Shown here: positions 5,077-39,808 of the stretch, one piece after another
Layout of the letters: each line of letters opens with the position of its first letter
Position numbering within the stretch: position 1 is the first letter of the stretch
DNA from: Rhodanobacter sp.
Lineage (GTDB): Bacteria > Pseudomonadota > Gammaproteobacteria > Xanthomonadales > Rhodanobacteraceae
Reading direction: 5' to 3'
Assembly (NCBI GenBank): GCA_004322005.1
Contig: SCRF01000038.1
Span: 1-40,263 of the forward strand
Length of the DNA stretch: 40,263 bases
Translations under genes and position numbers: made by a program
Notes under the pieces: model-generated
What the model saw: only the letters and a program-made list of their open reading frames with translations
The model's database searches: none
Told to the model about the DNA's origin: nothing

Positions 5077-5211
5077 CACCTGTTTGTGTAGGAGCCCGCT
5101 TGCGGGCGATGCCTTTTGCTCTATCCGGACGAAAGGCATCGCCCGCAAGCGGGCTCCTACGACATCGGACAAAAGGCATCGCCCGCAGGTGGACCCCCCT
5201 ACAAACAGGTG
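5077..5211. repeat. REP cluster with an extra outer inverted repeat
   Basis: Unit 1 (plus) starts at 5088 (GTAGGAGCCCGCTTGCGGGCGATGCC). Unit 2 (minus) ends with CTAC at 5157-5160. A decayed unit 3 (minus) ends with CTAC at 5199-5202. Just outside the GTAG ends, CACCTGTTTGTG at 5077-5088 is the inverted match of CAAACAGGTG at 5202-5211, so the whole block is closed by an additional stem. It lies 6 nt after the dehydrogenase stop codon and ends just before the next gene. Confidence 0.82.
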
Positions 5212-5228
5212 GCTCGCGGTATGCCAAC

Positions 5229-5834
5229 ATGCAAGGCATGCGTTCCGCTTTCGACCGCCTGCTTGCCGAGATCCGTGCCTGCCGGATCTGCGCTTCCCAC
5301 CTGCCGCTGGGACCGCGACCGGTGCTGCAGGTATCGGCATCGGCGCGGCTGCTGATCGTCAGCCAGGCGCCCGGCCGCAAGGTGCATGACACCGGCATCC
5401 CGTTCAATGACGCCAGCGGCGAGCGTCTGCGTGACTGGCTCGGTATCGACCGCGACACGTTTTACGACGCCAGCCGCATTGCGATCGTGCCGATGGGCTT
5501 GTGCTTCCCTGGCACGGCGCGTGGCGGCGACTTGCCGCCGCGTCCGGAATGCGCACCGAACTGGCATCCGCGGCTGCTGCCCCTGCTCACCCAAGTGCGG
5601 CTGACCCTGCTGATCGGCCAGTACGCGCAGGCGGGCGTGCTCGGCCTGCCGCGCGGCACCCGCCTGACCGATACCGTGCTGACCTGGCGCGAACAACTCG
5701 CCCACGCACGTCTGCCGCTGCCGCATCCGAGCCCGCGCAACCGGTTGTGGCTGGCACGCAATCCCTGGTTCGCCGAGGAACTGCTGCCGGTACTGCGCGA
5801 GCGCGTGGCCGAAGCCCTGTCTGCAGCGGATTGA
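5229..5834 (+). CDS. Uracil-DNA-glycosylase-superfamily protein
   Basis: A 201-residue protein of the UDG superfamily (PF03167), presumably removing uracil or related bases from DNA; activity is not proven for this subgroup. Motif 1 is replaced by SQAPGRKVHDTGIPFNDASG near residues 48-67, recalling the G-E-A-P-G...G-x-P-F pattern of family 4/5 enzymes. Motif 2 is HPSPRN near residue 170. An N-terminal C-x2-C (CRICASHLP) near residues 17-20 could be half of the Fe-S cluster site of family 4, but I do not see the full four-Cys set. Start is ATG 5229 or 5238; the frame runs further 5' only through REP sequence. Confidence 0.82.
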   Translation: MQGMRSAFDRLLAEIRACRICASHLPLGPRPVLQVSASARLLIVSQAPGRKVHDTGIPFNDASGERLRDWLGIDRDTFYDASRIAIVPMGLCFPGTARGGDLPPRPECAPNWHPRLLPLLTQVRLTLLIGQYAQAGVLGLPRGTRLTDTVLTWREQLAHARLPLPHPSPRNRLWLARNPWFAEELLPVLRERVAEALSAAD

Positions 5835-18267: not shown

Positions 18268-18702
18268 TCCAGCGAGCGCTTCGGTTTTTTTGCCACAGGA
18301 TCTCGTCGCTGGCCGGATCGAGCTATGGCGGGAAACCTGCCTGGAAGAACTCGACGGGGACCATCCTGCGACATTTTGTCCGGCCGCCCATTTGAACGAC
18401 GCGTCACCCGGTGAAACAGGCAAAACCGGCCAATGCCGACGCCCTCCCGCAAGCTCGCCGTCGATGCGCGAACCCCATGCAGTACGGGCGTTTCACGGCA
18501 TTGCCTGCCCGCAGGCGCCGCACGCCGCCGAAGCATGACGTCTCCAGTGGCGTGCAACCCGCCCGGTTCGTCCGAACCTGTATCGACGACAACGAGCAGG
18601 CACCTCTTGATCAAGATCAAGGCCAGCCGCAGCGATGCTGCGCAGAATTCGTCACAGGTTCCACGATCACACCCACTTACTCATCCACCGGAGAATCAGA
18701 TC
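18268..18702. other. Intergenic region upstream of azurin
   Basis: About 435 nt with no convincing gene on either strand; the open frames have no recognisable protein signature. The only clear element is the FNR/ANR box at 18607-18620. A CAGAAT at 18643-18648 lies where the -10 box of a class II FNR promoter would fall, predicting transcription from about 18655. Confidence 0.55.
18607..18620 (+). promoter_or_regulatory. Perfect FNR/ANR box upstream of azurin
   Basis: TTGATCAAGATCAA matches the FNR/ANR/DNR consensus TTGAT-N4-ATCAA at all ten defined positions. Its centre (18613.5) is about 41.5 nt before the start site predicted from CAGAAT, the classic class II activator spacing. Azurin control by ANR is known in Pseudomonas aeruginosa. 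Confidence 0.82.
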
Positions 18703-19149
18703 ATGCGTAGACTCATTGCCCTTGTCGCCCTTGCGTTGCTGTCGACCCCGCTGTGGGCCGCCCAGTGCTCGACCACCATCGAAGGCAACGACGCGATGCG
18801 TTTCGACAAGTCGTCCATCGTGGTGCCGAAGGTCTGCAAGACGTTCTCGGTGACCCTGAAGAATACCGGCTCGATGCCGAGGGACGTGATGGGCCACAAC
18901 TGGGTACTCAGCGAGAGCGCCAACGAGAGCAGCATCATTTCCGACGGCATGACCGCCGGCCTGGCAAACAATTACGTGAAGCCGAATGACCCCCAGGTCA
19001 TCGCGAGCACCAAGCTGATCGGCGGCGGCGATTCGGACACGACCAAGTTCGACGTATCCAAACTCAAGAGTGGCGAGGTGTATGCGTTCTTCTGCACCTG
19101 CCCGGGCCACGCCACCCTGATGAAGGGCACGCTGACCGTCGGTTCCTGA
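18703..19149 (+). CDS. azu: Azurin, type 1 (blue) copper protein, with Cys at position 114
   Basis: Azurin is a periplasmic electron carrier linked to denitrification and the peroxide response. The 148-residue precursor has a 19-residue signal peptide (MRRLIALVALALLSTPLWA) and a 129-residue mature domain that aligns without gaps to P. aeruginosa azurin through the copper site. Visible by that numbering are the Cys3-Cys26 disulfide, the copper ligands His46 (MGHNWV), Cys112, His117 (PGH) and Met121 (LMKG), and Asn47. Two oddities are that residue 114, normally Phe, is Cys (FFCTCPGH; codon TGC), and that His35 is Asn. Phe114 is a second-sphere residue whose mutation shifts the redox potential. 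GGAGA lies before ATG 18703. A perfect FNR/ANR box lies upstream. Confidence 0.95.
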   Translation: MRRLIALVALALLSTPLWAAQCSTTIEGNDAMRFDKSSIVVPKVCKTFSVTLKNTGSMPRDVMGHNWVLSESANESSIISDGMTAGLANNYVKPNDPQVIASTKLIGGGDSDTTKFDVSKLKSGEVYAFFCTCPGHATLMKGTLTVGS

Positions 19150-22215: not shown

Positions 22216-22995
22216 ATGTCATTCGCGATCCTCGGTTTTGGCCGCTTCGGCCGCGCCTTCAGCGAACTGCTGCTGCATGCCGGCGAGGACGTGCGCGCCC
22301 ACGACCCGCATGTCGCCGTGCCGACCGGGCTTGCCGCCGCCTCGGCGGTTGCCGCGGTGGATGGCGCGCAATGGATCGTGCTGGCGATGCCGGTACCGCA
22401 CATGCGCGCTGCGCTGGAGGCGATCCGCCCGCACCTGCACGCCGGGCAGACCGTGATCGACGTGGGCAGCGTGAAGCTGCATCCCTGCGCGCTGATGGAT
22501 GAGCTGCTCGGCGCGGACATTCCGCATGCCGGCACGCATCCGCTGTTCGGCCCGCTCAGCCTGGCCCGCGGCGAGCGCCCGCTGCGCGCGGTGGTGTGCG
22601 CCAGCGCGCGGCATCCCGATGCCGCCGCACGCGCACGCCGGCTGTTCGCCGAGCTCGGCTGCGAGGTGATCGAACAGGAGCCGGCCGCGCACGACCGTGC
22701 GATGGCCAGCACCCACGCACTGGCGTTTTTTATCGCCAAGGGGCTGATCGACATCGGCGTGGACGACGACCTGACGCTGGCGCCGCCATCGTTCCAGGGC
22801 CTGAAGAACATGCTGGCTGCGGTGCGCGGCGATGCCGGGCACCTGTTCGCGGCGATCCAGCAGGAAAACCCGTTCGCCGCCGAGGCGCGTACGCGGCTGA
22901 TGCAGTCGCTGGAGCTGATCCACCGCAAACTCCTCACCGAAACCGACGCCGACGGCCACCTGGCCATTCCCAACCTGCCCGAGGATGCACCTTGA
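22216..22995 (+). CDS. tyrA: Prephenate dehydrogenase (TyrA family, no mutase domain)
   Basis: This oxidises prephenate (or arogenate) toward tyrosine with NAD(P)+. The 259-residue protein has the Rossmann start [45 protein letters not shown] and the active-site segment [10 protein letters not shown], then [19 protein letters not shown] in the helical dimer domain. It is short and lacks an AroQ domain and an ACT domain, so chorismate mutase activity must come from elsewhere. AGGAAAA precedes ATG 22216. Its TGA overlaps the TTG start of ubiD (TTGA), so the two genes are translationally coupled. Substrate preference is not readable. Confidence 0.86.
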
Positions 22996-25117: not shown

Positions 25118-25131
25118 CTGACCCAGATCAA
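25118..25131 (+). promoter_or_regulatory. Degenerate FNR-like site upstream of ubiU
   Basis: CTGACCCAGATCAA matches TTGAT-N4-ATCAA at eight of ten positions, with the right half perfect. It ends 58 nt before the ubiU start. In E. coli ubiUV is FNR-activated, which supports but does not prove a role here. Confidence 0.4.
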
Positions 25132-32601: not shown

Positions 32602-33519
32602 TCAGGCAGTTTCGCCCCGATGCGCGGCCCGTGCGGTGCGGGCAAAACGCGCACCGCGATTCAGCACGATGCGCAAGCCCAAGGGTACCGACTCCCATGG
32701 TAACCGTTCCAGCATGTTGCGTGCAGTAAGCCCCAGCTCGGTATCGCCGGTCAGCACCAGGCGGCGCTGGAAGAACAGCGTGTCGGCATCCTCGAGCCGG
32801 CCGGCCAGCAGCAACAGGTCGGTGGCGCTGCCGCGGACGCTGGCCTCGGCCTCGGCCTCGGTTACGCACAGCCGGTTGTCGCGCAGCTCCAGCACCCAGC
32901 GCAGGCGCAGGTCGCTGACCTCGATCGCCAGCCGCCGTCCGCGCATGAAGTCGAGCGCGCCCTCGCGCAGCGGCGCGTCCAGCACCCGGGCCATCGCCGC
33001 CTCCAGCAGCCGGTGCTGCCAGCGCGACGGCACCACCTGCAGCAGCGGCGCGAGCCGGCGTGGCGGTGGCAACAGGCGCAGCAGCTGCGGCGCGACGGAC
33101 GAAAGGGAAGTCGGCATGGGCATGATGGGCAGCATTGTGGCGGAAAGGGCGCCTGCATCGCCCTGACGTAAGTCAACCCGGTTCAGATCGGCCAGCAGAT
33201 CAGCCTGGCCCGGTTCCAGCCGCTCCGGCTCGACCGGCAGCCCCTGCTGGCGACAGGCATCGCCGATGGCAAGATCCAGCAGCCGCTGTGCCGTGGGTTC
33301 GGGCAGATCGAACCGGGCCGCCAGCCCCTGAGCGCGCTGGCGCACCTGTTGCTCCCGCGCCAGGTCGCGCGGCGGCACCCCGGCCTGCTGCTTCAGCGCC
33401 GCCACGGCATGCACCATGCGGCGACGCGCGGCGAGCAGCAGGATCAGGCTGTCGTCGACGCGATCGATCACGCCACGCGCCCGTGCCAGGGCGAAGCGCT
33501 CAGGGGTGGGCAGGAGCAT
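32602..33519 (-). CDS. ubiT: AroQ chorismate mutase domain fused to UbiT (SCP2) domain
   Basis: A 305-residue two-domain protein. Residues 8-95 are an AroQ-type chorismate mutase domain. Against E. coli P-protein numbering, Arg11/Arg28/Lys39/Asp48/Arg51/Glu52/Gln88 correspond at identical spacing to Arg15, Arg32, Lys43, Asp52, Arg55, Glu56 and Gln92; only Ser84 is replaced (Ala88). After a linker, residues about 137-300 are an SCP2 lipid-binding domain closely like E. coli UbiT, including DTLFFQRRLVLTGDTELGL and ARNMLERLPWESVPLGLRIVL. UbiT is the accessory factor for O2-independent ubiquinone synthesis with UbiU/UbiV. GGAGG precedes ATG 33519, which overlaps the DGC-protein gene by 20 nt. E. 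coli UbiT (174 residues) lacks the mutase half. Activity of the AroQ half is inferred from residues only. Confidence 0.9.
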   Translation of the reverse strand: MLLPTPERFALARARGVIDRVDDSLILLLAARRRMVHAVAALKQQAGVPPRDLAREQQVRQRAQGLAARFDLPEPTAQRLLDLAIGDACRQQGLPVEPERLEPGQADLLADLNRVDLRQGDAGALSATMLPIMPMPTSLSSVAPQLLRLLPPPRRLAPLLQVVPSRWQHRLLEAAMARVLDAPLREGALDFMRGRRLAIEVSDLRLRWVLELRDNRLCVTEAEAEASVRGSATDLLLLAGRLEDADTLFFQRRLVLTGDTELGLTARNMLERLPWESVPLGLRIVLNRGARFARTARAAHRGETA

Positions 33520-33931
33520 CGGCGGCCTCCGCGGGCGAAACTCGGGAAATCATGCCACTGTCCCGGGGAGCCAGCGCCCGTGCGGCCGGCAGCAGCTCGG
33601 TGTCATAGATGCGCTGCGCCTGGGCGGGATCGAAATCGGCATGCATGCGCTTCCTCACGCCATGGTCGGACAGCACCAGATGGGTATCGGCCACGACACC
33701 GGCATGGGCGAGGCAGGCGGAAACGCACTTCAACACGCAACCGTCCAGCGCAAGGATACGCCGTCCGCTGCGCGCCGTGCGCACCAGACCGGTGACGCCG
33801 CCGCCGACGCCGGCAATGCAGGACATTTCGGCCAGCCCATCGCGGTCGAGCTTCACGGCCAGGTGATTGGCCATCTGCGCCGCGCTGGAACAGCCGGAGC
33901 ACGAGTAAACGAGCGGCGACTTGGCGCTCAT
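33500..33931 (-). CDS. DGC-domain putative zinc-binding protein
   Basis: A 143-residue protein of the DGC-domain family (PF08859), of unknown biochemical role. Conserved features are the N-terminal VYSCSGCSSAAQMANHLAVKLDR, EMSCIAGVGGG near residue 40, and the name-giving LDGCVLKCVSACLAHAGV near residue 70, giving six or more cysteines for metal binding. ATG 33931 overlaps the stop of the upstream membrane-protein gene (ATGA), and its own end overlaps the start of the mutase-UbiT gene by 20 nt. Together with DUF2249 and the NnrS-like protein this forms a set seen near denitrification genes. Confidence 0.88.
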   Translation of the reverse strand: MSAKSPLVYSCSGCSSAAQMANHLAVKLDRDGLAEMSCIAGVGGGVTGLVRTARSGRRILALDGCVLKCVSACLAHAGVVADTHLVLSDHGVRKRMHADFDPAQAQRIYDTELLPAARALAPRDSGMISRVSPAEAADAPAHP

Positions 33932-35184
33932 GGGCGGGACTCCATCGTCAAACGGAAACGTTTCGTGCGCCGGGACACGCCCAGGCACGCCAGCCACACG
34001 CCCAGCCAGGCCAGCAGCATCGCCAGCCCGGCCGAGCGCGCCAGCCACGGGCTCGGCCACAGCACGGCGGCCGGCAGCAGCAGTGCCAGCAGCAGTTGCG
34101 CCAGCAGCACCCGGATCTTGTCGGTGGCCGGCAGCAGCCGCTGCACACCGGGCAGTTGCACCCCGCGACCGATGTGACGGTGCAGCCCGATCCAGCCGAG
34201 AAAGCCGACAATTTCCAGCAGCATGCCGTTGACCATCAGCGGCAGGGCGATACCCAGCCCCAGTACGGCGGCCAGCCGCCCGCCGCGGGTGCCCGCCAGC
34301 AGGGTCGCTGCGGCCAGCGCCAGTAGGGTCCACCCGACCATCCAGCTCAGCCGCAGCGGGCCACGGCGCGGTCGCGGCGCCTGCCGCTGCAACCATAGCC
34401 CGGCGCCGGCGAACGACAACGCATAGATCGCCAGCACCAGCCGCAGCACCGAGGCGTCGTCGTACCCCAGCCGCTGCCAGGCACCGGCGCCCAACGCCAG
34501 CGGCAAACTGCCCAGCCAGATGGCCTGCGCCACCGCCGGTACCGTCCGCGTGCCTTGAAACATCGGCATCACCACCCGGCCCACGCTGGCCATGAGAACC
34601 ATCACCCAGCCCAGAATGCCCCAGCTGGCATGGACGTCGGTCAGTGCCGGCAGGGCCATGCCGAGCCAGCCGCCCGCGCCGAGCGCGAGACAGCCACCGA
34701 ACAGTGCCGCCAGCAACGCAGATCCCAGTGCCGTGACGAAACCCGCGTGCAACAGGCGCTGCCCGCCCGCCATGACAAGGCCCGGCAGCGTCATTGCTGC
34801 CAACAGCATGAACGCCAGCGGCAGCACGATGCCGCCAGCCAGAACGCCGGCACGCCAACCGGCGAGCCACCCCGCTACCAGCAGGATCGCGCCGAGATTG
34901 AACGATGCATGCAACCAGGGCCCGAATCGCGCAGTGCCGCGCACGCGCACACCGGCCGCCGTCGGCAGGAACTGCAGCGTGCTGCCGAACATCGCATTGC
35001 CGAGCACGCCGAGCGTGAACGCATGCACCAGCGCAAGGGTGGCCGGCAGCCAGCGCGAGCGCAGCAGCAGGTCGCCATCGGCGATCAGCAGCAGGCCGGC
35101 GAACATCCCCCACAGCGGCGCGCTGAGCAGGAAGCGGCGCGGCAGCGACGACGCCGGCGACTGTTCAAGCGCCAGTCGGGCCAT
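33928..35184 (-). CDS. NnrS-like / haem-copper-oxidase-subunit-I-like polytopic membrane protein
   Basis: A 418-residue inner-membrane protein with about 12 hydrophobic segments. Three helices carry histidines in contexts like haem-ligating helices of the oxidase subunit I superfamily: LVHAFTLGVLGNAMFGSTLQFLP near residues 52-75, WLHASFNLGAILLVAGW near 90-106, and LTDVHASWGILGWVMVLMASVGRVVMPMFQ near 180-210. This pattern is shared with NnrS, a nitric-oxide-stress protein. A catalytic copper site is not evident. The gene overlaps the DUF2249 gene by 20 nt upstream and the DGC gene by 4 nt downstream. The NnrS assignment is by resemblance and context, not certainty. Confidence 0.75.
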   Translation of the reverse strand: MARLALEQSPASSLPRRFLLSAPLWGMFAGLLLIADGDLLLRSRWLPATLALVHAFTLGVLGNAMFGSTLQFLPTAAGVRVRGTARFGPWLHASFNLGAILLVAGWLAGWRAGVLAGGIVLPLAFMLLAAMTLPGLVMAGGQRLLHAGFVTALGSALLAALFGGCLALGAGGWLGMALPALTDVHASWGILGWVMVLMASVGRVVMPMFQGTRTVPAVAQAIWLGSLPLALGAGAWQRLGYDDASVLRLVLAIYALSFAGAGLWLQRQAPRPRRGPLRLSWMVGWTLLALAAATLLAGTRGGRLAAVLGLGIALPLMVNGMLLEIVGFLGWIGLHRHIGRGVQLPGVQRLLPATDKIRVLLAQLLLALLLPAAVLWPSPWLARSAGLAMLLAWLGVWLACLGVSRRTKRFRLTMESRP

Positions 35185-35449
35185 CGTGATCGGGGCAACG
35201 AATCAGCACGCACACGCCACCGTCCGGCAGCGCCGACACGCAGGTCTGCAGACCACGTGCCTGCAGCACGTCGAGCAGCGGCAGCGGCTTTTGCGGAGTG
35301 AGCACCTGCACCGCCTGCCCCGCTGCGAGCGCGCCGGCAACCGCAAGCGCACGCTGCATCGGTTCGGGACAAGGCAACTGGCGCAGATCGTATTCGGGCC
35401 ACGCCGCATCGACGGCCCGCAGATCGTGAAACGTCTGGTTCGCTGACAT
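35165..35449 (-). CDS. DUF2249 (TusA-like fold) protein
   Basis: A 94-residue protein with one DUF2249 domain, related to the TusA/SirA sulfur-carrier fold. The signature LRQLPCPEPMQRALAVAGALAAGQAVQVLTP holds the conserved Cys-Pro near residue 27, followed by PLPLLDVLQARGLQTCVSALPDGGVCVLIRC. Such proteins are recurrent in nitrate/nitrite/NO-related operons; the exact role is unknown. It is the first gene of a tightly overlapping minus-strand operon. The FNR-like box centred 42 nt before the ATG predicts a transcript starting at or next to the ATG, and no Shine-Dalgarno is visible, so the mRNA may be leaderless. Confidence 0.88.
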   Translation of the reverse strand: MSANQTFHDLRAVDAAWPEYDLRQLPCPEPMQRALAVAGALAAGQAVQVLTPQKPLPLLDVLQARGLQTCVSALPDGGVCVLIRCPDHDGPTGA

Positions 35450-35484: not shown

Positions 35485-35498
35485 CTGATCTGGATCAA
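35485..35498 (-). promoter_or_regulatory. FNR/ANR-like box of the DUF2249-NnrS-DGC-UbiT operon
   Basis: The minus strand reads TTGATCCAGATCAG, nine of ten matches to TTGAT-N4-ATCAA. It sits in the 95-nt gap between the porin stop and the DUF2249 start, 36 nt before the ATG. Confidence 0.68.
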
Positions 35499-37498: not shown

Positions 37499-39256
37499 CT
37501 ACATCGAGATCGACCCTTCGCGGAAACCGCTGGGGTCGAGCCAGATGTTGACCAGCACCGGGCGTCCGGAACGGGCCAGCGTCTGCGCCCGCGCCAGGGC
37601 GCCGGGCATCTCGTGCATGTGGCGCACCAGGATGCCTTCGGCGCCGAGCGCCACGGCGACCTGGTCGTAGTCGCTGCGCGCCAGCGTGGTGCCCACCGCA
37701 TCGCCCAGCAGCTTGACCTGCTCGCGTGCGATCTGGCTCCAGCCGGCATCGTTGCCCACCACGGCGATCAGCGGGATGCCATGGCGCACGAAGCTGTCGA
37801 ACTCGATCAGGCTGAAGCCGCACGCGCCATCGCCCCAGATCAGCCAGAGCTCGGCGCCGGGCCGGTTGGCGCTTGCGCCGAGCGCGAAACCGGCGCCCAC
37901 GCCCAGCGTGCCGAACACGCCCGGATCGAGCCAGCGCAGCGGTCCGCGCGGGCGGAGGGTATACGCGGCGGTCGCCACGAAGTCGCCGCCGTCGGCCACG
38001 AAGATCGCCTCGTCGCTGGCGATGCGGTCGATCTCGCGGAACAGCGCCAGCGGGTTCACGTACTCGCCGGACACGTCGGCGTCGCGCACGATCTCTACTT
38101 CGCGCCCGGCGTCGCGTCCGTGCAGCACCGCCTGCCACTCGCCGCGCTCGGCGTTCTGTGCCAGCTTGCCGGCGAGGGCATCGAGAAACAGGCCGGCATC
38201 GCCGAGCGCGGTGATGGTCGGCGTGCGGTTGAGGCGTGCCTCGCGCCGGCTGCGGTTGGCGACGATCAGGCTGGCGCTGCGGCGCACGTGGCGCCCGTAG
38301 TCGAGACGGAAATCGCACGGCACGCCGGCCAGCACCACGCAATCGGCCTCGCGCAGGGCCTGCCGTCGCTGGTGGAAAAGCTGCCGCGGATGCGCCCGCC
38401 CGAGCAGCCCGCGCGCCATGCCGGACAGATAGAACGGCAGCTGCAGCGCGGAAATGGCGGCGGCGACCCGATCCACGTTCGCCGCGTCGATCACCGCCTG
38501 GCTGCCCACCAGCAGCAAGGGCCGCTTGGCCCGCGCCAGCGCCGCGGCCGCACGCTCGACGGCGGCCTGAGCTGGCCGCTGAAGGCGCACCTCGCGCACC
38601 GGCGGTGCCGTGCCCGGACGCCGGCCCGCGAACATGCGCGCGACGTGCCGCTGCAGATACCAGCGCTGCAGGCGTTCCGCCAGCGACTTGCCGCGCGCGC
38701 CGGCATCGGCGTACCAGCCGCGGATCATCGCCTCGTCGTACAGCAGATCCACCGGACATTCGATGAAGACCGGGCCGGGCACGCCCTCGCGGGCCACGGC
38801 GAAAGCCTCCGCGATCGCCGTGGCCAGATCCGCCACCCGGCGCACCCGGCGCAGCCACTTGACCTGCCCGGTCACTAATTGCGTCTGGTCGATATCCTGC
38901 AGCGCGCCGCGCTTCTGCAGCACCGTGGGCGCGGCACCGCCGATCAGCACCAGCGGCGATTGGGCGAGCTGCGCATTCTTCAGCGCGGTGAGCGTGTTGC
39001 TGACGCCGGGACCGGCGGTAACCACGGCCACGCCCGGCACGCCGGTCAGGCGCGCGGCGGCATCGGCGGCAAACACCGCGGTGGCCTCGTGGCGCACATC
39101 CAGCACACGGATCCCGTGGGCGCGGGCCGCCGCCAGGATCGGCGAGATATGGCCGCCGCACAGAGTGTAGAGGCTGCTCACGCCTTGTGCCTGCAGCGCT
39201 TCGGCTATGCGCTCGCCGCCGGACAGAGTGCCGGACGTGGAAGTTGACTGGCTCAT
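37499..39256 (-). CDS. ThDP-dependent lyase of the ILVBL/HACL2 type (2-hydroxyacyl-CoA lyase-like)
   Basis: A 585-residue thiamine-diphosphate enzyme of the acetolactate-synthase superfamily, unusually close to human ILVBL (HACL2), which cleaves 2-hydroxyacyl-CoA. Shared segments include [30 protein letters not shown] (with the ThDP-activating Glu), [63 protein letters not shown] and the ThDP/Mg motif [32 protein letters not shown]. True acetolactate synthase is unlikely, given these segments and the lack of an ilvN neighbour. ATG 39256 overlaps the stop of a decayed acyl-CoA ligase gene as ATGA, consistent with an ancestral ligase-lyase pair acting on fatty acyl chains. The substrate is inference. 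Confidence 0.88.
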
Positions 39257-39644
39257 TTCGATGCTTGCTCCCGGTCGATGTATGCCTGCCGCAAGGCGCG
39301 GTAATCGATCTTGCCCACCAGGGTTTTCGGCAACCCGCTACGAAACGCGATCTCGCGTGGGCACGACCATTTGATCAGGTGTTCGCGGCAATGGTCATGG
39401 TGGGCAGGGCGATCAGCAGCCGATCGCCCTGCCCCAGGCCCAATGCGTGCAGCGCGTCGGCACAGCGGTCGATCGACGCCAGCAACGCGCGGTAGCTCGC
39501 CGTGGTGTCGAAGAAATCCCGGGCCGGCGCATCGGGAGTCCGCCGCGCGGTGGCGGCGATCATCCGGTACAGGCTGCACTCGGGGTAGTCGAGGCGATCC
39601 GGCACCTTGCCGTCGAAACGCAACCACGGCGGCGCTGCGCTCAC
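39253..39644 (-). pseudogene. Acyl-CoA ligase (AMP-forming) remnant with large internal deletion
   Basis: Only the two ends of an AMP-binding acyl-CoA synthetase remain. From a probable GTG at 39644 the N-terminal part reads PPWLRFDGKVPDRLDYPECSLYRMI then DALHALGLGQGDRLLIALPTMT, stopping at TGA 39377-39375. In a different frame, joined near 39375-39400, the C-terminal part reads CREHLIKWSCPREIAFRS followed by GLPKTLVGKIDYRALRQ, the characteristic end of the family with its catalytic Lys. Roughly 390 residues, including the whole AMP-binding core, are missing and the junction is frameshifted. The 3' end still overlaps the ThDP-lyase start by ATGA. Confidence 0.82.
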
Positions 39645-39794
39645 GGCACCCACCGCCGCGAACGCGCCGCGCGAGGAAGGCCGATCCTCCGCTGCGTTTG
39701 GATATGCCCGTCTCCCTTGAAACCCATGCACAACGACGTGCCTGCCGAGGCCTCGCATCGGCGCACAGCATCCCGCAGATTCGGGCTGGGTGGT

Positions 39795-39808
39795 TTGATC
39801 CGGGTCAA
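39795..39808 (-). promoter_or_regulatory. FNR/ANR-like box upstream of the ligase remnant / ThDP-lyase operon
   Basis: The minus strand reads TTGACCCGGATCAA, nine of ten matches to TTGAT-N4-ATCAA, 150 nt before the ligase remnant start. With class II spacing, transcription would start near 39760. Confidence 0.5.

Follow-up and report, generated by a model that had tools for sequence, protein, structure and literature searches.

Locus organization and domain architecture

The window analysed here is a stretch of 40,263 nucleotides (nt) from Rhodanobacter sp. (contig SCRF01000038.1, assembly GCA_004322005.1). One of its minus-strand genes, hereafter CM-UbiT, encodes in a single open frame an AroQ chorismate mutase (CM) domain followed by UbiT, a protein of oxygen-independent ubiquinone synthesis (Table 1). 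This fusion had been proposed in a first-pass annotation of the sequence, whose coordinates hold, on the minus strand, with the CM_2 and UbiT profiles scoring above their cut-offs. Pfam CM_2 (PF01817) matches residues 15-91 (E 1.4e-13, 51.3 bits for a cut-off of 27), Pfam SCP2 matches residues 182-270 and NCBIfam UbiT (NF047962) matches residues 160-276 with 127.7 bits for a cut-off of 46.9. The AlphaFold2 model (mean predicted local distance difference test, pLDDT, of 86.6) contains the three AroQ helices (residues 6-46, 53-69 and 74-91) and a separate SCP2 fold. The assignment of the N-terminal half to AroQ is thus borne out both by profile search and by structure prediction. With the window protein, the NCBIfam CM models listed all stay below their own cut-offs; the score is 48.2 bits for an NCBIfam CM model versus 17.3 bits for the 'CM-like' model TIGR01803, which we take to be of PchB type. 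The identity of the C-terminal half is indicated by the specific SCP2 profile and by the co-occurrence of UbiU and UbiV, both encoded in the window.

Relatives were collected by scanning one genome per species, which returned 353 stretches encoding a relative; the best 80 were kept. One open frame spans both halves in 79 of these 80 fetched loci, and these 79 together with the window protein form the 80 sequences considered below. The linker that separates the halves measures 17 to 53 codons between fixed alignment columns. It is free of in-frame stops in all 80 sequences, as expected if it is translated through, while the other two frames contain stops in 62 and 68 of the 80 (locus L083 dropped). 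A frameshift or an assembly artefact is ruled out by the single open frame of 79 of the 80 loci and by the recurrence of the fusion over the order.

The locus set aside as out of frame, L083 (Arenimonas daejeonensis), has CM and UbiT in different frames at about position 5150, which reflects an error in sequencing or else a genuine interruption of the frame.

Active site of the chorismate mutase half

The catalytic positions of Escherichia coli CM are Arg11, Arg28, Lys39, Asp48, Arg51, Glu52 and Gln88; the Ser84 position varies among AroQ enzymes and is not family-defining. The first-pass annotation, which used this E. coli numbering, had recognized seven of eight catalytic residues with Ala in place of Ser84. 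The same alignment columns give the same answer: the equivalents in the window protein are R15, R32, K43, D52, R55, E56 and Q92, with A88 at the Ser84 position. Together with a profile score above the cut-off and a three-helix fold, these seven residues place the domain among AroQ CMs, Ser84 being the feature that it lacks.

R15, R32, K43, R55 and E56 are found in 80 of the 80 sequences. The D52 column holds 75 Asp and 5 Asn, the Q92 column 79 Gln and 1 His, and position 88 is Ala in 73, Gly in 6 and Ser in 1. The mean majority residue reaches 64% over CM residues 10-99 versus 78% over SCP2 residues 145-286. Once the set was dereplicated to 53 sequences of less than 75% identity, only columns 15, 18, 22, 32, 43, 55 and 56 out of 85 were invariant in the CM domain, and five of these seven are catalytic. 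Conservation of this kind, in a domain that otherwise drifts, is typical of an enzyme or, at a minimum, of a site that binds chorismate. Because the catalytic residues are invariant while the rest of the domain drifts, the fused mutase is likely to be active.

Distribution of the fusion and association with UbiV

The distribution was established on 299 genomes of the order, Xanthomonadales, all tallies being taken from the matches listed; 14 fusions came as two pieces and were joined by equal open-frame lengths. Individual genomes (G), loci (L) and families (f) are designated by number where needed. CM and UbiT occur together in 42 of the 299 genomes, in families f1-f4, which confirms over the order the architecture proposed from a single gene. 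The record titles of the fusion loci include Rhodanobacter, Dyella, Frateuria, Dokdonella, Lysobacter, Thermomonas, Arenimonas, Stenotrophomonas, Xanthomonas, Luteimonas, Pseudoxanthomonas and others, many being metagenome-assembled genomes (MAGs). One MAG contig labelled Erythrobacter (L064) also carries the fusion; mis-binning is likely, since its sequence is close to those of L051 and L060.

UbiV is encoded in 78 of the 299 genomes overall. Of the 42 genomes with the fusion, 41 encode it; the remaining one, G069, is 86% complete. The link to oxygen-independent ubiquinone synthesis drawn by the first-pass annotation is strengthened by this association, as by the presence of ubiU and ubiV in the window itself. 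UbiT without CM beside it is found in 38 genomes, 35 of which have UbiV (the exceptions are G184, G201 and G213). These 38 belong to families f8, f9, f10 and f12, apart from G184, G255 and G291, which are members of f1. UbiV is present without fusion or UbiT in G033 and G217.

In the UbiT tree, 12 of the 13 free-standing UbiT of families f8, f9 and f10 group together (96/90), L102 lying apart on a long branch, and the UbiT of f12, G291 and G184 fall among the fused ones. The tree has many open forks and requires five label changes; a single origin of the fusion is not shown by it.

A predicted nested FNR-type promoter in the linker

Class II promoters of FNR carry a box of the TTGAT-N4-ATCAA type centred near -41.5 and, about 22-23 nt later, a -10 element. 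Boxes were sought as TTGAY-N4-RTCAA with at least 9 of 10 matches, applied as a plain consensus instead of a weight matrix. In the window gene a 9/10 box lies within the linker and the hexamer CACAAT follows 23 nt later, which is the class II spacing.

A linker box is present in 59 of the 80 genes, whereas 200 synonymous-codon shuffles gave 5.8 on average and 12 at most, and a repeat with 300 shuffles gave 5.95 and 13. The excess persists after dereplication (35 of 53 sequences; shuffle mean 3.06, maximum 7). Elsewhere in the gene, boxes are found in the CM part of 6 of the 80 and in the SCP2 part of none. Spacing was measured on 47 contexts left after dereplication. In 43 of them the best -10-like hexamer begins 23 nt after the box; at that offset all 47 have A as second and T as sixth base, and 45 have an in-frame ATG 36 or 39 nt beyond the box. 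Box and -10 element occur together in 46 of the 80 genes, compared with a shuffle mean of 4.2 and a maximum of 10. Since box, -10 element and ATG stand at fixed spacing far above the synonymous-shuffle expectation, they predict a nested anaerobic promoter whose transcript would start almost at the ATG and encode UbiT alone. Four HTH_Crp_2 matches above the cut-off are present in the genome of the window.

Boxes were also counted in the 400 nt upstream of CM: 12 of the 21 loci without a linker box have one, as do 16 of the 58 with a linker box, these being raw counts. Upstream of free-standing ubiT genes the box is perfect in three of the three f8 loci, and it matches 9/10 in G184, G291 and the two f12 loci. 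The five f9 loci and the five f10 loci have boxes of 8/10 or 9/10, or none. From the upstream boxes of f8 and f12, the linker promoter may be an old ubiT promoter swallowed by the fusion, an origin that would hold for these two families at best.

Gene neighbourhood

The features of the window that bear on CM-UbiT are collected in Table 1. The hydrophobic frame upstream may be NnrS-like. Many of the flanks available for the 80 relatives are short; the neighbouring genes found in them include DUF2249 (43), the hydrophobic protein (44) and DGC (35), as well as nadA (54), nadB (51), fabA (40) and fabB (40). Within these limited flanks ubiV is found in 42 and ubiU in 34 of the 80, and ubiVU lie downstream, oriented towards CM-ubiT, in all cases but L068.

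Table 1. Positions, strands and supporting details of the features discussed; coordinates are those of the window
Feature	Position	Strand	Detail
CM-UbiT fusion gene, 305 amino acids (aa)	32602..33519	minus	single open frame
AroQ CM domain, residues 11-94	33238..33489	minus	profile match, active-site columns, model
Linker, poorly conserved, residues 100-140	33100..33222	minus	residues 118-135 with pLDDT <50; stop-free in frame
UbiT/SCP2 domain, residues 145-300	32620..33087	minus	
Intragenic FNR-type box TTGACTTACGTCAG, 9/10	33163..33176	minus	within linker
-10-like hexamer CACAAT, 4/6 to TATAAT	33134..33139	minus	23 nt after box
Predicted internal start codon M133, short UbiT of 173 aa	33121..33123	minus	in-frame ATGs also at M129 and M135
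ubiU, 332 aa	25190..26188	plus	NF047963, 532.6 bits, cut-off 440
ubiV, 295 aa	26193..27080	plus	NF047965, 354.4 bits, cut-off 275
DGC-domain protein	33500..33931	minus	PF08859, 115.7 bits; overlaps CM-UbiT start by 20 nt
Hydrophobic membrane-protein-like frame	33928..35184	minus	no Pfam or NCBIfam match
DUF2249 protein, presumed operon head	35165..35449	minus	
TyrA (prephenate dehydrogenase) frame	22216..22995	plus	PDH_N match 22336-22554; no CM_2 match
FNR-type box, 9/10	35485..35498	minus	35 nt before DUF2249 start
FNR-type box, 9/10	25118..25131	plus	58 nt before ubiU

FNR-type boxes number eight in the window for 1.25 expected. Within the 200 nt before DUF2249, a box of at least 9/10 is present in 25 of the 43 relatives that have this gene, against a mean of 0.4 and a maximum of 3 in 100 base shuffles. 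Two perfect boxes lie elsewhere in the window. One (18607-18620) is inside a cupredoxin-domain frame (18433-19149); the other (39795-39808) stands 23 nt before a frame of 172 aa (39253-39771, minus strand) that has no Pfam match.

Proposed role in anaerobic ubiquinone synthesis

According to the literature, ubiT and ubiUV are under FNR control in E. coli. UbiT is described as a likely binder of ubiquinone intermediates that supplies UbiUV with them (PMC10470549). A 2024 review names prephenate as the source of oxygen when ubiquinone is made anaerobically, and adds that the U32 enzymes still await direct evidence (PMC11574389). The U32 relative TrhP is likewise described as requiring prephenate, and a PheA with only CM activity restores the TrhP reaction (PMC6599085).

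CM-UbiT could accordingly be a two-function helper for oxygen-independent ubiquinone synthesis. Its N-terminal AroQ domain, devoid of an ACT (feedback) domain, would convert chorismate to prephenate beside UbiT and, lacking ACT, would presumably escape inhibition by abundant phenylalanine. UbiT, as an SCP2 lipid carrier, would present ubiquinone intermediates to the UbiU-UbiV hydroxylase, to which prephenate would be handed over as oxygen donor, so that one protein would bring both the lipid and the donor. In most sampled lineages, the FNR-type promoter of the linker would deliver a short and nearly leaderless UbiT transcript at low oxygen, and full-length CM-UbiT and UbiT alone would coexist. 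Taken as a whole, a dedicated prephenate source carried on the UbiUV lipid carrier and combined with a nested promoter is the best explanation of the locus and, in our estimation, probably the right one; it would presumably answer a physiological need of the cells. Its more specific form is a tentative proposal, which we find attractive but somewhat short of probable: a 'both-substrates' helper of a U32 hydroxylase, in which oxygen sets, via the linker promoter, the ratio of donor-making to donor-free carrier.

The first-pass annotation had placed the link elsewhere, in the use of chorismate by UbiC at the start of ubiquinone synthesis, a matter of 4-hydroxybenzoate supply. This basis is not supported, as no UbiC match was found in the genome of the window, which is 96.3% complete. 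A match to FkbO/Hyg5-type chorismatases (G000:C10:32683-33498, 193.8 bits, below the cut-off of 325) makes the corresponding protein a candidate hydroxybenzoate source in place of the UbiC not found. The diversion of chorismate to prephenate, also envisaged by the first-pass annotation, gains from the reported oxygen source (PMC11574389): it would be the purpose of the fusion and not a side effect. The observation stands. Its first-pass interpretation is partly supported, with the emphasis now moved from the supply of 4-hydroxybenzoate to that of an oxygen donor.

Genomes without the fusion and points against the proposal

Several facts weigh against the donor-supply proposal. UbiT scores above its cut-off in 193 genomes of a phylum-wide sample of 398, and among the matches listed for these 398, where CM/UbiT adjacency was judged by eye, no CM adjoins or is fused to UbiT outside the fusion families or outside the order. 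The linker box is absent from 21 of the 80 genes, and a Met-Ile pair in the protein accounts for part of the -10 signal. A nested promoter would also yield UbiT without CM at low oxygen, the opposite of a simple donor supply, unless the full-length form comes from the operon promoter as well (box at 35485).

Some genomes moreover do without the fused mutase. In G255 (locus L142) there is no CM match and UbiT, UbiU and UbiV are kept. The f12 genomes G030 and G066 have UbiT alone with ubiUV, their CM matches being found only elsewhere, in frames of PheA size. In G291, some 35 kb lie between a free-standing CM gene and ubiT, which is accompanied by ubiUV. Since G255 and the f12 genomes have UbiTUV without a fused CM, CM is an aid to the pathway and not a requirement.

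The box region survives CM deletion, a point in favour of the promoter. At the G255 locus the DGC gene, CM and the rest of the hydrophobic gene are missing, and the linker retains a weaker box (8/10) with a -10-like hexamer and an ATG at the usual spacing, as judged by eye. In G184, a genome with no UbiV match, almost the whole CM is gone and UbiT and the box (9/10) remain. What is left of the hydrophobic protein at the G255 locus, its N-terminal part, continues in frame through the linker to UbiT.

Free-standing CMs related to the fused one occur at L086 (G291, 5179-5511), L087 and L088 (G012), with a similar gene order before fabA-fabB. G012, a relative of G291, has this CM, no UbiV and no close UbiT match. 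In favour of the proposal, its catalytic Lys is replaced by Arg, whereas G291, which has UbiTUV, keeps it; the comparison is a by-eye alignment of one genome each.

Alternative explanations

The conservation of the active site also fits a sensor, in which the AroQ half would bind chorismate or prephenate and tune UbiT, catalysis being incidental. A precedent exists, as the AroQ domain of B. subtilis-type DAHP (3-deoxy-D-arabino-heptulosonate 7-phosphate) synthases is a regulatory domain. We nevertheless regard a sensor as unlikely: being a lipid carrier, the UbiT half is not known to catalyse any step that could be regulated, a low-confidence linker of 17-53 codons does not suggest allosteric coupling, and the role of prephenate as donor gives the product of CM a direct use. 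AroQ folds are dimers, and the domain could also act as a scaffold that merely dimerizes UbiT. The chance of this seems slight, as a scaffold would not hold catalytic residues invariant while other positions drift.

As little credit is given to a housekeeping CM for phenylalanine and tyrosine fused to UbiT by happenstance. The first-pass annotation had considered the fusion a possible cellular source of mutase activity and had observed that TyrA lacks a mutase domain. The latter holds, the genome having two CM_2 matches only, in CM-UbiT and in PheA, and the fused domain looks active. The former is weak: PheA already combines CM with prephenate dehydratase and ACT, six listed genomes of the same genus have no match at all, and the fusion goes with UbiV instead. 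For the donor-supply proposal there is room for a second CM, the ACT-bearing PheA being the only other one found. Least probable of all, at the margin of what we would entertain, CM and ubiT would be two genes merely sharing an open frame with UbiT made only from the internal promoter, as the nested promoter and start signals and the separate genes of G291 might suggest, against which stands a linker whose own frame, alone of the three, is stop-free throughout.

The 'both-substrates' reading, if true, would make this natural gene fusion an independent support for prephenate as the physiological oxygen donor of UbiUV. Hydroxylation from an organic donor is a very recent idea, for which a fusion with an intact active site across families of an order is evolutionary evidence. 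CM-UbiT is a ready tool for testing donor chemistry, as a pathway protein that seemingly has its own donor source, and the nested promoter would offer a clear case, open to testing, in which a single frame encodes a fusion and, at low oxygen, also one half of it.

In the literature searched, whose coverage is partial, no paper joining 'chorismate mutase' with 'ubiT' was met. UbiT and prephenate both occur in PMC10470549, PMC8854274 and PMC13106123; the excerpts of PMC10470549 do not mention a CM-UbiT fusion, and PMC11707229 contains no mention of fusion, fused or intragenic. The internal regulatory signal appears new, no earlier description having been met.

Comparison with known systems

The closest known system is the UbiTUV pathway of E. 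coli with its UbiT (YhbT), which shares with the present locus the SCP2/UbiT profile, the company of ubiU and ubiV and the FNR-type boxes. The short UbiT predicted here would have 173 aa, compared with 174 aa given for E. coli UbiT (PMC6747719).

On the mutase side, the CM domain of E. coli PheA (1ecm) has the same fold and seven of the eight active-site residues at identical spacing. It differs by Ser84, which is Ala here, and by its partners, prephenate dehydratase and ACT instead of UbiT. The two best-scoring NCBIfam CM models describe monofunctional proteobacterial CMs (PRK09239 and CM_mono_cladeE), and the best PDB sequence match of the window protein, 3rmi, is also a monofunctional CM. 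The window CM stays below the cut-offs of both models (48.2 of 120 bits for PRK09239, 38.1 of 107.55 for CM_mono_cladeE) and, unlike them, is not free-standing.

Two other fusions offer parallels. The ubiT-ubiU fusion of Zymomonas mobilis likewise joins UbiT to another protein in a way that points to a shared function (PMC6747719), its partner being UbiU, whereas the partner here is an enzyme of aromatic biosynthesis. In the CM-cyclohexadienyl dehydratase fusions, CM is joined to a user of its product (PMC10520331). These proteins are exported and serve phenylalanine synthesis, while CM-UbiT is presumably cytosolic and would be linked to quinone synthesis.
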